This document shows, one piece after another, positions 33,356 through 38,512 of a stretch of 64,000 nt of DNA. A program made the translations under genes and the position numbers. Numbering within the stretch: position 1 is the first letter of the stretch; each line of letters starts with the position of its first letter. This DNA is from Acidimicrobiia bacterium (lineage in GTDB: Bacteria > Actinomycetota > Acidimicrobiia > IMCC26256 > PALSA-555): positions 1 to 64,000 of the forward strand of contig DASZJD010000106.1 in assembly GCA_035948415.1 (NCBI GenBank), written 5' to 3'. A model generated the notes under the pieces. The model did no database searches and was not told where the DNA came from. It was given only the letters and a program-made list of their open reading frames with translations.

Positions 33356-33429
33356 GGGCCTGTAGCTCAGTTCGGTAGAGCGCCTCCATGGCATGGAGGA
33401 AGTCAGGGGTTCAAGTCCCCTCAGGTCCA
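33356..33429 (+). tRNA. tRNA-Ala (anticodon GGC)
   Basis: Full cloverleaf of 74 nt: 7-bp acceptor stem GGGCCTG/CAGGTCC, D-arm GCTC/GAGC, anticodon stem CCTCC/GGAGG with loop ATGGCAT (anticodon GGC), and T-arm AGGGG/CCCCT with TTCAAGT. The third acceptor pair is G-U, the alanine identity element G3-U70. CCA is not encoded after the discriminator A. The 3' end is repeated downstream. Confidence 0.95.
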
Positions 33430-33458
33430 CACGCTCAGGTCCACACCCTCAGGTCCAC
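33420..33458 (+). repeat. Tandem triplication of the tRNA-Ala 3' end
   Basis: CTCAGGTCCAC occurs at 33420-33430 (inside the tRNA), 33434-33444 and 33448-33458, a strict 14-bp period with connecting triplets ACG and ACC. Such repeats of a tRNA 3' end suggest integration-site remnants or slippage duplication. No integrase gene is in the window. Confidence 0.8.
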
Positions 33459-33547: not shown

Positions 33548-34159
33548 CTACGTCACGATTCGGTCCCGCCGGAAGATCACGGCGGAGACGACGAGCAGCC
33601 ACACAATCGCGAGGACGGCTCCGAGAAAGCCGATCGGGCCGGCCAGCGACAGGATCGCGATCACGATCGCCGCCCACCCCAGCCACCGTGGCAGCAGGGG
33701 TCGCCTCACCGTCGAGATTCCCGTCGCGAGCAGCAAGACGGCGATTCCACCGGTGACCACGAAGAAGTCGTTGTTGAACAGGACGTTCAAGGTCTGTGCG
33801 GGCGCCGCGAACCTGTGTTCCCCGGCCCGGGCCAGCGCGAAGCCGACCACGGCGTCGAGCAACGCGCCCCCGGCCAAGATCACCGCCCCGCCAAACGCGG
33901 CGACGGAAAGCACGTCGCCACCCGCTTCTCCGCTCTGGAGAAGCTCGCGAAGACGCGCTGCGAACAAGACCACCAGCACCCCGCCGATCGCCAAGATGAG
34001 GCTCGAGATCCTTGTCACCGTCAGATGGTCATGGAAATACGACACCACCTTCGCCGCGCTCGCGTCGTCCTGCGGGGAGGGTCCCCCGAGGACGGTGCCC
34101 ACGGCGAACAGAACACCCGCACCTACCCCGCACAACGCCAGCCACCGTCGCAGCGTCAT
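33548..34159 (-). CDS. Membrane protein of unknown function
   Basis: 203 aa with about five to six membrane helices (near 7-26, 50-68, 84-110, 128-150, 157-190) and no recognised catalytic motif. ATG 34159 has a purine-rich ribosome site and overlaps the stop of a 25-codon leader ORF (ATGA). Last of a four-gene minus-strand run headed by the LuxR-type regulator. I do not recognise the family; DUF4386-like proteins look similar in layout. Confidence 0.6.
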   Translation of the reverse strand: MTLRRWLALCGVGAGVLFAVGTVLGGPSPQDDASAAKVVSYFHDHLTVTRISSLILAIGGVLVVLFAARLRELLQSGEAGGDVLSVAAFGGAVILAGGALLDAVVGFALARAGEHRFAAPAQTLNVLFNNDFFVVTGGIAVLLLATGISTVRRPLLPRWLGWAAIVIAILSLAGPIGFLGAVLAIVWLLVVSAVIFRRDRIVT

Positions 34160-34233
34160 CCCTGCCTCCCTCCCTCGACACCAACGTTCCGCGGAGCCTG
34201 GTGCGGCCGCCGCGCAACATCCGCCTCAATCAC
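34156..34233 (-). CDS. Short leader ORF 1, coupled to the membrane protein
   Basis: 25 codons from GTG 34233, with AAGGAG 7 nt upstream, to a TGA that overlaps the next gene's ATG. Peptide starts MIEADVAR. The ribosome site and first codons lie in a 31-bp element found again before the cupredoxin-like gene, where it starts leader ORF 2. The architecture suggests translational coupling; a leader-peptide or tiny-protein role is inference. Confidence 0.45.
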   Translation of the reverse strand: MIEADVARRPHQAPRNVGVEGGRQG

Positions 34234-34252
34234 GAGGGTCTCCTTTGTCGTC
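34222..34252 (-). repeat. Duplicated leader element, copy 1
   Basis: 31 bp, similar to 35146-35176 at about 25 of 31 positions with one base shifted. It carries the ribosome site and GTG of leader ORF 1. The two copies are direct repeats flanking the cupredoxin-like gene. Confidence 0.7.
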
Positions 34253-34324
34253 GTGATCCGACGTCGCGTCGCGCTGCCGGACCACGTGCTGGCCGAAGGC
34301 GGGGAACCCAGCGACCGGGCCGGA

Positions 34325-35074
34325 TCACTTGGTGACCGTGAACTCGGAGTGCATGCCCAGCTGGGCGTGGGGCGGCCCGCTGCCTTGGCTGGACGAGGTC
34401 GTGCCCTTCGGGACGAGGCAGAGCGCGACGTAGCGTCCCGGCGCGTTGAGCTGGAAGTAGCCGACACTGGTCTGACCAGGGTCCGACCCCGTGACACCGA
34501 GGTTCTCGACCCTCGTCCTGGCCTGGCCTTGCGGCAGGGCGAGGAGGGCCTTCACCGAGTCGGACGTCTTGATCCGCGCGATTCTGATCTCGTGGCTCTC
34601 GGAGCCTGCGTTCTTGAAGCTGACCACGACAACGCCCGTCTTCAGGGTCTTGGGGACGCCCTTCAACGCGTACTCGACGCCGGTCACGTTGATCACGTGG
34701 TAGCCGCAGTTCTTCACCGCGTAGGTGTCGATCTTGCTGCCCGCGTCAGAGACCGCCGAATCGTTGAGCGCGGCCTGGAAGTTCGCGTGCAGCGCGTTCG
34801 CGATAATCGTCTCCTGGCCGACGATCGCGGCCGGTGCGCTCGTGACCGCTTGGTCGACCAACGTGAGGATCGGACCTGACGCTTGCTGGATCTGAGCCGG
34901 GCTCGGCTGCCCGGCGGCCGTGGCGGTCGCGAACAGGCGGTTGAGCTGGAGGTTGATCTTCACGTTCGTCGCGCAGAACGCCTTCTTGTCCGCGGCGACC
35001 GCCGGGTTCGACCAGGCCAGAGGCAGCCCGGCCACCAGGCAGCCACTCACCAGCAGCGCCCGAGTCCGCTTCAC
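34325..35074 (-). CDS. Secreted cupredoxin-like protein
   Basis: 249 aa. Signal peptide of about 27 residues ending AVAA. The middle (about 30-110) is helical and of unknown type. The C-terminal part (about 120-249) looks like a cupredoxin fold with possible copper ligands: the His in SESHEIRIA, the Cys in VALCLVP, and the His and Met in PPHAQLGMH. GTG 35074 has a GAGGAG site and overlaps the stop of leader ORF 2 (GTGA). The protein would act outside the membrane, perhaps in electron transfer or copper binding; this is inference. Confidence 0.6.
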   Translation of the reverse strand: MKRTRALLVSGCLVAGLPLAWSNPAVAADKKAFCATNVKINLQLNRLFATATAAGQPSPAQIQQASGPILTLVDQAVTSAPAAIVGQETIIANALHANFQAALNDSAVSDAGSKIDTYAVKNCGYHVINVTGVEYALKGVPKTLKTGVVVVSFKNAGSESHEIRIARIKTSDSVKALLALPQGQARTRVENLGVTGSDPGQTSVGYFQLNAPGRYVALCLVPKGTTSSSQGSGPPHAQLGMHSEFTVTK

Positions 35075-35157
35075 CGCGACTCTCCTCGTGCCACCGACCC
35101 GACCGGACCGGCCGGCGCCGGTACCGGAGCGGTCCGCACCGCATTCGCCTTAACCAC
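35071..35157 (-). CDS. Short leader ORF 2, coupled to the cupredoxin-like gene
   Basis: 28 codons from GTG 35157 (AAAGGA about 7 nt upstream) to a TGA overlapping the cupredoxin-like gene's GTG. Peptide starts MVKANAVR, resembling MIEADVAR of leader ORF 1. Its start overlaps the last codons of the small upstream gene (stop 35150-35152), so three reading frames are chained by overlaps. Confidence 0.45.
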   Translation of the reverse strand: MVKANAVRTAPVPAPAGPVGSVARGESR

Positions 35158-35176
35158 GAGGGTTCCTTTCGTCGTC
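35146..35176 (-). repeat. Duplicated leader element, copy 2
   Basis: Partner of 34222-34252. Here the element also encodes the last residues and the TAA stop of the small upstream protein, which copy 1 does not. Confidence 0.7.
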
Positions 35177-35422
35177 GCGAGTTGATGCTGCGCCGGTCTC
35201 GCCGACCGCTTGCCGGCTGAGGACGGCAAGCTTGGCGGCGGCGACCTCCAGCAGTGCCGGCATCGACTCCGCGGGGATCTCCAGCTGCTCCGCCATGGCC
35301 GCCATCGGCACCCCCGCTCGCTGCAGGGCGATGGCGACGGCGTAGACGACCGGCAGTCGCGTCAGCGGCCCGTCGGGCATGTCCGCGGTCGGCCGGTCGC
35401 TGCGCGGCTGCTCTGAGGGCAT
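35150..35422 (-). CDS. Small hypothetical protein
   Basis: 90 aa from ATG 35422 (or 102 aa from ATG 35458; neither start has a well-spaced ribosome site). An acidic/basic N-terminus is followed by a helical core LPVVYAVAIALQRAGVPMAAMAEQL and a second helix pair with AAAKLAVLSRQ. The core could be a helix-turn-helix of a sigma-region-4-like type, but no key motif proves it. Lies between the LuxR-type regulator and the cupredoxin-like gene. Confidence 0.55.
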   Translation of the reverse strand: MPSEQPRSDRPTADMPDGPLTRLPVVYAVAIALQRAGVPMAAMAEQLEIPAESMPALLEVAAAKLAVLSRQAVGETGAASTRDDERNPRG

Positions 35423-35515
35423 CCTCCGCAGTGTGCGAGCGCGGGCGCCGGCACGCATCGGTACCGCGTTACGGATCTTTTCGCCGCCGCGGGGCCCGAG
35501 GACTGCGTAGTGGCG

Positions 35516-38155
35516 CTATGGGGCAGCGGCGGTCATGCCCAACGCCACCGCCAGCTCGGGTCGCCCAGCCACGCCGAGCTTGGCGTAGACACGACTGAGG
35601 TGGGTCTCCACCGTCCTCACGGACACCACGAGTTGCTCGGCGATCTGACGGCTGGACCGGCCACCGACTGCCATGCGGGCGACCTCCAGCTCCCGGGCGG
35701 TCAGCGTCGCGGGCGACCGCTGCCAGTCGATGGTCGGGCTGGTTGCCCCCGGACACGACGCGAGGAGGGTCTCGCACCGCAGACCGAGCGACGCGGCCCG
35801 TGATCGGTCGCCGAGAGCCTGATAGCGGGCGGAGGCCGTCGCCGCCGCCTCTGCCGCCAGGATCCGCATCTCGAGCCGCTCGAGCCCGTCGGCGGCCGCC
35901 TCCAAGGCTGGCGCGTCGCCCGCGGCCAGCGCGGCGGCGTGGGTGGCCGCCACCGCCGCGAACGGTCCGTCCACGATCGAGACGAGGGACGCCAACCGGT
36001 CCGTCACGGACGACGCCTGCCCGAGCCTCGCGCGGCCGTGCCGCGCTTGGAGCTCGTAGGGGAACTGGCCTCGATGGCGGGCCGCGGTTGCAACCTCCTC
36101 CAGGTGCGCCGCGGCGCCCGCGGCGTCGCCGCCGGCCGCCTCAACCCACGCCGCCGAGATCTCCAACAGCGGGTCGAACCACACCAGACTCGGCGTCCGC
36201 GCCTCGCTGGACTCCGCGAGGGCGGTGCGGGCTCCGCGGAGGTCACCTGAGAAGACCCGGGCCAGCACGAGCCCGGCCGCGGCCAGGATCGCCCCGCCGG
36301 CCCAGTCCTCGGTTCGGAGCACCTCCCATCCCTCACCCAGGCGCCGTTCGGCGGTCACCGCATCACCTTGGAGCAGCTCGACCCAGCCGGTCAGGGCCGA
36401 GCCCACCGCGACGAACTTGTGGTGGCGCTGCTGGAGGCCCAGTTCGAGGTACGCGGCCGCCAGGGACCCTGCTCGAGGGATGTCACCACCGAGGAACGCG
36501 GCGACCCAGGTCGCCGCCGGACCCCAGTCGGCGAGCTCATGCGACTGGGCGGCGGCGGCCAGCCGGGGCTCGTTCCACCTCCGCGCCGCGGCCAGCGCGT
36601 CGTCACCCCGTCCGGAGAACGCGCTGCCGTTCGCGACCGCGCCGAGCGCAGTCAGGGTCACCTCTGGCTCCTGGCCGGGGTCGCGTGCCACCGGCGCGGC
36701 CATGGCCACTGCCTCGGCGGGAAACCCAAGCGCCGCTCGAAGCTTGGCCTGGTACGCCGCCAGCCAGGCCCGAGCCGGTTCGGCCGTCACCGTCGCCTCG
36801 GCGCGGGCGAGCACGTCTTCGGCTGCGGCGGTATCACGCACACCGAACCACAGCGTCTTGGCCTTAAACACCGCCAGCTCGGCCTGCTCGGTGTCGTTAC
36901 TGGGTTCGGTCCCGTCGAGTTCGGCGAGCACGTCGCGATAGCGCCCCTGCCGGTACAGGGACTCGGCCAACGCCACCCTCGCTCGGTGATCGGCCGGCGC
37001 AGCCGACACCGCGGCTCGGGCGAGCCGTTCGGCGAGTCGAAAGTCCAGCGCCTCGGCAGCCTGTCGGGCGCCAGCCACGAGCATCCCCAGGTCGCCGGTC
37101 CCACCGCTGTCGAGCCTCCAGGTGACGCAGCGCAGCAGGTCCTCCCGGCGATGTAACCCGATCCGGGCACAGCCGTCGGCCAGGCGACCCGCGAGCCAGC
37201 GCTGCCTGGCGACGGGCACGAGCGTCCGAACGACCTCGCCGAACATCGGGTGCGCGACGCGGGCAACCATCCGGTCGCCTTCGGGCCCGATCTCGATCAG
37301 GCCCGCGCTCTCGGCCTCGGCCAGACCGCGAGCCTCGGTCAACCCTTCGAGGACCTCCATCGGCACCGGGTCCGCCAGCGCGGTGATGTCAAGCCCCTCG
37401 CGGGCCGCGGTGCCGAGCTGTGCGATTCGAGTCTTGATCAACTCGACCAGCCGGTCGCCGACCGGTACTGGCCCGGCGAGGCGCCAGCGGCCCTCGATCT
37501 CTCGCAACGCGCCGCTCGTGGTGGCGCTGCGGAGCAGCTCGCGCACGTACAACGGGTTTCCCTGGCTCGCCTCCCACAACGAGTGCAGTTCCAGTGACCC
37601 ACAGGGTCCGCCCAACGTGGCCACGATCAACTCGTCGGTCTCCGCGCGAGAAAGCGGCTGTAGCTCCACCCGTTCAGCCCAACCGTCCTTCCAGAGCGCA
37701 GTCACGGCATCGGGTGCCGGCTCAGCCGTTCGCACCGTGACCAAGACCGCGGCGACGCCAGACACCACGAGCTGATGCAGCACCATTGCCGACACGTCGT
37801 CCGCCAGGTGTGCGTCGTCGACGGCCACCAGCGGTAACGGAGCCCCATCGGGGGCGTCAAAGTTCCGGCGTATCTCGCTGGCAAACTTCAACGGGTCCGA
37901 AGGACGGACCGTTTCGCGCGTGTCGGACGGCAGCAGCGGTCCGAGGACGCCGAGCGGGATACCTTGACTCGACCGCGTCGCCGACACCCAGCAACCGGGC
38001 CGACCATCAGCCGCCACCGCCGCCTGGACCTCCCGTGCAAGACGGGTCTTGCCCACCCCCGACACGCCCGCCAACACCACGCTCGACGACCGGTCCAGGT
38101 ACGCACGCAGGACGCGCGCCTCCGCACCCCGCCCCACCAAGCCCTCCGCCTCCAC
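35516..38155 (-). CDS. Large LuxR-family ATPase regulator (LAL/MalT type)
   Basis: 879 aa. N-terminal AAA/STAND domain with Walker A GVSGVGKT near residue 30 and Walker B LVAVDDAHLADD, then a long TPR-like helical region (about 300-800). A C-terminal LuxR helix-turn-helix follows (LTARELEVARMAVGG, then SVRTVETHLSRVYAKLGV). Such proteins are signal-responsive activators; the ligand is unknown. The GTG at 38155 gives the usual length and lies 8 nt after a TATCGT box. The frame continues upstream to 38485, but that part looks non-coding. Probably controls the following cupredoxin/membrane genes. Confidence 0.88.
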   Translation of the reverse strand: MEAEGLVGRGAEARVLRAYLDRSSSVVLAGVSGVGKTRLAREVQAAVAADGRPGCWVSATRSSQGIPLGVLGPLLPSDTRETVRPSDPLKFASEIRRNFDAPDGAPLPLVAVDDAHLADDVSAMVLHQLVVSGVAAVLVTVRTAEPAPDAVTALWKDGWAERVELQPLSRAETDELIVATLGGPCGSLELHSLWEASQGNPLYVRELLRSATTSGALREIEGRWRLAGPVPVGDRLVELIKTRIAQLGTAAREGLDITALADPVPMEVLEGLTEARGLAEAESAGLIEIGPEGDRMVARVAHPMFGEVVRTLVPVARQRWLAGRLADGCARIGLHRREDLLRCVTWRLDSGGTGDLGMLVAGARQAAEALDFRLAERLARAAVSAAPADHRARVALAESLYRQGRYRDVLAELDGTEPSNDTEQAELAVFKAKTLWFGVRDTAAAEDVLARAEATVTAEPARAWLAAYQAKLRAALGFPAEAVAMAAPVARDPGQEPEVTLTALGAVANGSAFSGRGDDALAAARRWNEPRLAAAAQSHELADWGPAATWVAAFLGGDIPRAGSLAAAYLELGLQQRHHKFVAVGSALTGWVELLQGDAVTAERRLGEGWEVLRTEDWAGGAILAAAGLVLARVFSGDLRGARTALAESSEARTPSLVWFDPLLEISAAWVEAAGGDAAGAAAHLEEVATAARHRGQFPYELQARHGRARLGQASSVTDRLASLVSIVDGPFAAVAATHAAALAAGDAPALEAAADGLERLEMRILAAEAAATASARYQALGDRSRAASLGLRCETLLASCPGATSPTIDWQRSPATLTARELEVARMAVGGRSSRQIAEQLVVSVRTVETHLSRVYAKLGVAGRPELAVALGMTAAAP

Positions 38156-38163
38156 GAACGGGC

Positions 38164-38169
38164 ACGATA
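38164..38169 (-). promoter_or_regulatory. Putative -10 box of the LuxR-type regulator
   Basis: TATCGT, 8 nt before GTG 38155, no ribosome site between; supports that start over the longer frame. Confidence 0.35.
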
Positions 38170-38418
38170 GACGGCCCCTCGCTGACGCCCTGGCGGGTGC
38201 GGTTGACACAGCGGATTGCGTCGCGCTTCTGAATCGCCCAACGGGTGGGAACGCGCGGGGCGCGAGACGCCCGCTCACCGCGAGCGCGAGGTCATCGAGC
38301 GGACCGCGGACGCCAGGATCGGCGGCCCCTCCCCAGTAACTTCGCCAATTCCTCGAAGAGTCCAGGTGTCCCCACAGGTCCACAGAGCGTGGAGCGCCGG
38401 AGACAGTGGCGTCGGTGC

Positions 38419-38464
38419 ACCGGCATGATGTGCCGGTACCCCAGCTCTCGGATGCTGGGACCGG
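38419..38464. other. Two mutually exclusive hairpins
   Basis: Hairpin A: ACCGGCA-tgatg-TGCCGGT (38419-38437). Hairpin B: CCGGT-(2-nt bulge)-CCCAGC, 8-nt loop, GCTGGGACCGG (38433-38464). They share CCGGT at 38433-38437 and cannot both form. Could be a terminator after the DinB-like gene, an operator pair or an attenuator; no T-run. Confidence 0.4.
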
Positions 38465-38512
38465 CGCCGTCAAGTTTGGGGTCACTCCCTCAAGAGGTCA
38501 CGTCGCCTACTA

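Follow-up and report, generated by a model that had tools for sequence, protein, structure and literature searches.

A predicted ribosome-start region with a short overlapping reading frame occurs twice, ahead of two unrelated neighboring genes of one bacterial cluster

We identify two copies of one ribosome-start region in a single gene cluster of an Acidimicrobiia bacterium, placed ahead of two unrelated adjacent genes that encode an exported auracyanin-like cupredoxin and a DUF4386-like membrane protein. Each copy supplies a ribosome site (SD) and a GTG for a short open reading frame (ORF) whose TGA overlaps the start codon of the gene that follows, and it is this copying of one start region, with the overlap in both places, that is unusual. 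We propose that the short ORFs initiate translation and couple it to the next gene, the sequence of the peptides being unimportant, and we place moderate confidence in this proposal. Most likely, the element passes ribosomes on to the next gene in an ordinary, already known way and was duplicated a single time, within one bacterial lineage.

Results

Genes of the cluster

The cluster lies entirely on the minus strand of the window, the 64-kb (64,000-nucleotide) stretch of DNA that was analyzed as a whole. It is transcribed from a LAL-type LuxR regulator gene at its head through orf102, element copy 1, the cupredoxin gene and element copy 2 to the DUF4386-like gene (Table 1). The regulator has an AbsR2-like NCBIfam match that falls under the cut-off of that model. 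We consider orf102 a real gene, with homologues of 38–51% identity over ~50 residues that adjoin LAL LuxR genes in three other genomes. Its family lacks a Pfam or NCBIfam match and is apparently an unnamed small-protein family; it recurs next to LAL-type LuxR genes at three loci elsewhere in the class, and the family protein is a possible candidate partner of these regulators.

Table 1. Features of the cluster, in order of transcription (positions in the window)
Feature	Positions	Strand	Basis or remark
LuxR-type (LAL) regulator gene, cluster head	35516–38485	-	Pfam GerE (4.5e-16) and AAA_16; start codon predicted
orf102, small gene associated with LAL LuxR genes	35150–35458	-	Homologues; coding signal in its own frame
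Element copy 1, 35-bp core	35142–35176	-	28/35 identical to copy 2; precedes the cupredoxin gene
Short upstream ORF 1, 28 codons	35071–35157	-	SD AAAGGA, GTG at 35157, TGA at 35071
Exported auracyanin-like cupredoxin gene	34325–35074	-	Conserved residues, AlphaFold model, PDB matches
Flank of copy 2, matching 35177–35236	34253–34312	-	35/60 identical
Element copy 2, 35-bp core	34218–34252	-	Precedes the DUF4386-like gene
Short upstream ORF 2, 25 codons	34156–34233	-	SD AAAGGAG, GTG at 34233, TGA at 34156
DUF4386-like membrane-protein gene	33548–34159	-	Pfam DUF4386 (E 2.5e-4; 21.4 bits, under the cut-off of 27.6); same-genus orthologue 65% identical

The cupredoxin carries His161, Cys219, His236 and Met241, which are invariant in an alignment of 12 homologues. 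Its AlphaFold model (pLDDT 89) combines a helical N-terminal domain with a beta-sandwich, for which the nearest PDB structures are auracyanins, blue copper proteins (E 7.7e-8 and 2.2e-7). The additional N-terminal helical domain, ~100 residues long and without a Pfam match in this protein, precedes the auracyanin-like domain in homologues of the same two-part form throughout the class. In two other genomes, cupredoxin homologues lie directly downstream of LuxR-type regulator genes, without the element.

The repeated start region

The preliminary description of this DNA reported two related direct repeats of 31 bp flanking the cupredoxin gene. The repeats themselves stand, with slightly larger cores of 35 bp (GACGACGAAAGGAACCCTCGTGGTTAAGGCGAATG and GACGACAAAGGAGACCCTCGTGATTGAGGCGGATG) that are identical at 28 positions without gaps; if two single-base indels that compensate each other are allowed, AAAGGA and ACCCTCGTG are exactly common to both. 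At 46 bits and with an ungapped match that reaches 93 bp, the pair is the top-scoring same-strand ungapped repeat in the window, where the next real pair scores 41 bits; the maximum in 12 third-order Markov windows was 31–37 bits. Pattern and profile searches find the element twice in its own genome, along with weaker matches inside unrelated coding sequence, and with only two copies we reject a regulon operator or a genome-wide repeat family.

Similarity does not end at the cores. The 60 nt upstream of them are 58% identical in fixed register (p<5e-5), and a gapped local alignment of the copy 2 flank with the orf102 tail gives p 0.009, whereas identity downstream is near background (35–50% over 10–60 bases, p 0.01–0.4). 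The length of the repeat was not judged from a permissive gapped local alignment of the two regions, because that alignment extended over their whole length. Because the similarity runs ~60 nt further upstream, the copied unit comes to ~95 bp. Copy 1 is not purely intergenic, a point missed in the preliminary description: its 5' part is the 3' end of orf102 and hence partly coding, while the counterpart bases in copy 2 are non-coding. From this resemblance, the copy 2 flank is probably a decayed copy of the orf102 tail. Since the upstream bases form an orf102 tail only in copy 1, we take copy 1 to be the source and copy 2 to be a transposed piece, so that a unit made of the orf102 end and the leader start was probably copied once, from before the cupredoxin gene to before the DUF4386 gene. 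The tails of orf102 homologues are alike in length and unlike in sequence.

Relative to the GTG, the core reaches from about -19 to +16, which is the size of an initiation region. Core and flank differ weakly in conservation (80% vs 58%).

Short upstream ORFs and chance expectation

Both repeats provide, as the preliminary description had recognized, a ribosome site and GTG for an ORF of 28 or 25 codons whose TGA overlaps the next start. ORF 1 meets the cupredoxin GTG in GTGA at 35074–35071, and ORF 2 meets the DUF4386 ATG in ATGA at 34159–34156, so each copy shows the arrangement of uPPE2, with an SD and start followed by a stop that overlaps the start of the next gene. Leader 1 is overlapped at both sides, since the orf102 TAA (35152–35150) falls within GTGGTTAA and overlaps the leader GTG, which the preliminary description had not noticed. 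Leader 2 starts ~92 nt past the cupredoxin stop, which breaks the chain upstream of copy 2. The cupredoxin and DUF4386 genes each possess a good SD of their own.

Starts of this strength are rare. AAGGA-N6-8-RTG pairs number 17 on both strands of a 356-kb sample of the same genome; 12 open ORFs of at least 90 codons, so that such pairs usually open real genes, and three open ORFs shorter than 45 codons, two of these being leaders 1 and 2. An SD-led ORF of 20–35 codons with an NTGA overlap precedes one of 122 called genes that have at least 80 nt free upstream, and that gene is the cupredoxin. Genes in this sample were called with a home-made gene caller that misplaced the DUF4386 start, and the background rates are therefore rough. 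Once the SD and GTG have been copied, only the phase, the open frame and the A after the start codon depend on chance; the right open frame with overlap is then expected at ~5% per copy and ~0.3% for both. We take this value as suggestive and not as conclusive, since the pattern was picked after being seen. In this GC-rich genome, 67% of gene starts have stop frames that are open over the preceding 25 codons.

Codon usage and RNA structure

The peptides begin alike, MVKANAVR in ORF 1 and MIEADVAR in ORF 2, with three of eight residues in common; past residue 8 the two show no similarity. The preliminary description saw in the kept frame, ribosome site and overlap a sign of selection; selection on the peptides is not borne out by the codons. 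Over the first eight codons there are six base differences, at codon positions 1, 1, 1, 2, 3 and 2, and each altered codon alters the amino acid, so that a comparison of the copies for synonymous bias yields no synonymous-only difference. GC3 is 0.69 and 0.65 in the short ORFs against 0.83–0.96 in the neighboring genes. ORF 1 also has negative codon log-odds. Neither ORF thus combines the synonymous bias and coding composition of a small protein under purifying selection; neither peptide contains Cys or has a Pfam match at E 1. With no coding signature and all differing codons nonsynonymous, function at the level of the peptide is unsupported. As far as codon usage can tell, these data speak against a conserved peptide, yet not against translation, and ribosome profiling in M. 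tuberculosis has found many short ORFs translated without signs of purifying selection (PMC9094748).

Two stretches of the core have a complement at a downstream SD, CCTCGTG in CACGAGG (cupredoxin) and CCCTCG in CGAGGG (DUF4386), which is only mildly unusual because, among 103 SD-bearing genes, three reach such complementarity over 7 bases and nine more over 6. The copy 2 leader folds better than shuffled sequences (z -4.1 to -4.6), with CCCTC pairing to GAGGG in the DUF4386 SD region. The copy 1 leader has an unremarkable fold (z -0.8), and its core pairs with the cupredoxin SD in only ~6% of the full-length ensemble. Blocking the leader start in silico barely moves SD exposure, from 0.58 to 0.59 and from 0.46 to 0.56. 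Taken together, the folds, pairings and blocking results make masking of the SD possible for DUF4386 and leave it unproven for the cupredoxin. A conserved RNA fold common to both copies is not claimed, as copy 2 folds strongly and copy 1 does not. An Rfam search of the window matched a tRNA and nothing else, so neither leader belongs to a structured RNA family known to Rfam.

Each leader also contains a local structure of its own. Leader ORF 1 has a dense GC palindrome (CGGACCGGCCGGCGCCGGTACCG..., window 35104–35141), which is predicted to fold into a stable hairpin after the leader start and ahead of the cupredoxin SD. In the copy 2 leader (window 34175–34229), a long predicted hairpin (z about -4) follows the leader start and precedes the DUF4386 SD; no T-run follows it, and hence it is no standard terminator.

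Occurrence in related genomes

The preliminary description proposed a search of related genomes for the element, and no conservation was found. It is absent from 100 relatives searched, from 58 genomes of the order (a profile search that returned weak matches only) and from the 395 class genomes other than its own, with up to 3 mismatches allowed. The pattern AGGAN{1,2}CCCTCGTGNTTNAGGCGNATG has no exact match in a collection of 84,980 species from which records of the source genome or very near ones were possibly left out, and the whole cluster was found in no other genome searched.

The closest DUF4386 orthologue, from a sister species of the same genus, is preceded by another gene, lacks the element and still starts ATGACG. 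The ATGA overlap at DUF4386 need not, therefore, be selected; of the two overlaps that the preliminary description had offered as a sign of selection, both are present, and this one is weak evidence. Cupredoxin homologues (24–31% overall identity) have neither the element nor such an ORF. The best of them in the class are 29–34% identical within the matched part, and a protein search of the 84,980-species collection found no close relatives.

Discussion

We propose that ribosomes would initiate at the leader AAAGGA(G)...GTG, as the SD and its rarity suggest, would read 25–28 codons, and would terminate at the overlapping TGA of GTGA or ATGA, a geometry present in both copies. Reinitiation at the start of the next gene would then follow, as published overlaps suggest (PMC10666635, PMC11260477). 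Reinitiation drops almost to nothing at a stop-to-start distance of ~20 nt (PMC10666635), and bridging ORFs would matter for that reason. In copy 1, orf102, leader 1 and the cupredoxin gene would form an unbroken relay over an otherwise 75-nt gap, because ribosomes leaving orf102 stop within the leader start (GTGGTTAA); in copy 2, the leader would feed the DUF4386 gene only. Reading of the leader may also open RNA structure, as CCCTCG in the core is able to pair with the downstream SD.

The preliminary description knew of no described element of this kind, which is wrong as regards mechanism. Upstream ORFs with an NUGA overlap are already known. An actinobacterial case is uPPE2-PPE2 of M. tuberculosis, in which downstream expression depends, mainly through termination-reinitiation, on translation of an out-of-frame upstream ORF with an AUGA stop/start overlap (PMC11260477). 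There, a B12 riboswitch controls uPPE2 and no SD precedes PPE2; in the present cluster, Rfam gives no match, each downstream gene has an SD, and the start region exists in two copies. The same -4 nt (NTGA) geometry, with proposed coupling, is found in overlapping gene pairs (PMC6728339, PMC10666635); here, however, the upstream member is a short ORF that has no coding signature and derives from a duplicated start region. Salmonella mgtQ, between mgtC and mgtB, is likewise a short intra-operon ORF and affects translation of the next gene via alternative stem-loops (PMC8092293), but it needs ribosome-destabilizing acidic codons, a pattern that the two peptides here do not share, and the present element has two copies. 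The CruR (DUF2946) upstream ORFs also lie ahead of copper-related genes; they are longer, carry CXXC and RAPP motifs and act through Rho-dependent termination (PMC9426467), and neither peptide here has these motifs or DUF2946 homology.

In favor of coupling, SD-start pairs this strong are rare in the genome and usually open real genes. The comparison of the copies adds a conserved core that appears sized like an initiation region, with near-background identity downstream. Further support comes from the rarity of an SD-led overlapping ORF, the low joint frame chance, the overlap with the orf102 stop and the fold of copy 2. Against coupling stand the lack of conservation in other genomes and the sister DUF4386 gene, which does without the element. 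The downstream genes have their own SDs, the fold of copy 1 is ordinary, and blocking the leader start changes little; the contrast between core and flank is weak, and the frame statistics are post hoc and come from a home-made gene caller.

It is possible, though we think it less probable than coupling, that the element is a neutral relic, a ~95-bp duplication of the orf102 end and intergenic bases in which SD, GTG and open frames were inherited or arose by accident and are inert, for example after a tandem duplication whose second gene got lost. The similarity covers coding sequence at the orf102 end that could not serve any function in copy 2, which fits such a history, as do the open stop frames upstream of most gene starts, the absence of the element elsewhere, the missing coding signature and the DUF4386 ATGA that occurs without the element. 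It accounts less readily for a core that is better conserved than its flanks (28/35 vs 35/60) and centered on an unusually strong start, or for the exact overlap hit in both copies.

We regard as unlikely a DNA control site to which the short ORFs would be incidental; as a promoter or operator ahead of two co-regulated genes, it would be recognized by the neighboring LuxR-type regulator or by an alternative sigma factor. Such a site would explain why the same sequence precedes two neighboring genes beside a regulator gene and why bases beyond the SD and start codon (CCCTC, TTRAGGCGRATG) are conserved that translation alone does not need; the cupredoxin homologues that adjoin LuxR-type genes in two other genomes also agree with it. 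However, the genome holds two sites only, with none ahead of the LuxR gene itself, no sigma-70-like promoter was found in the region, the two cores have no clear dyad in common, and copy 1 lies partly within the orf102 coding sequence. Very improbable is a CruR-like regulatory leader peptide with a sequence-dependent role in nascent-chain or metal sensing, which could draw on the copper ligands of the first downstream gene product and on the mostly mild substitutions at the peptide starts (V/I, N/D, A/V), but which is at odds with the lack of Cys and hence of CXXC, the lack of the RAPP motif (PMC9426467), the loss of similarity past residue 8, the absence of synonymous-only codon differences and the non-coding codon usage.

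A bolder form of the coupling proposal would make the element a copyable translational bridge, in which a ~95-bp ribosome start and short ORF can be placed before an unrelated gene with the exact frame and overlap kept or regained, so that a small partner gene of a regulator, a copper protein and a membrane protein would all be fed by a ribosome relay; we consider this rather improbable. If the leaders are translated, they would be a clear example from nature of a short ORF that solely carries ribosomes over a gap, independently of its peptide, and that was copied to a second gene, and would suggest that coupling devices can spread via local duplication. If they are untranslated, they would be a warning that duplicated start regions in GC-rich genomes readily yield convincing leader ORFs.

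Beyond the DUF4386-like gene, the cluster is followed by a tRNA-Ala gene on the plus strand (33356–33430). The 3' end of this tRNA (CTCAGGTCCAC) is present three times in tandem with a 14-bp period, at 33420, 33434 and 33448 (window 33420–33458), a pattern that can be seen where tRNA ends carry integration sites or slipped duplications.
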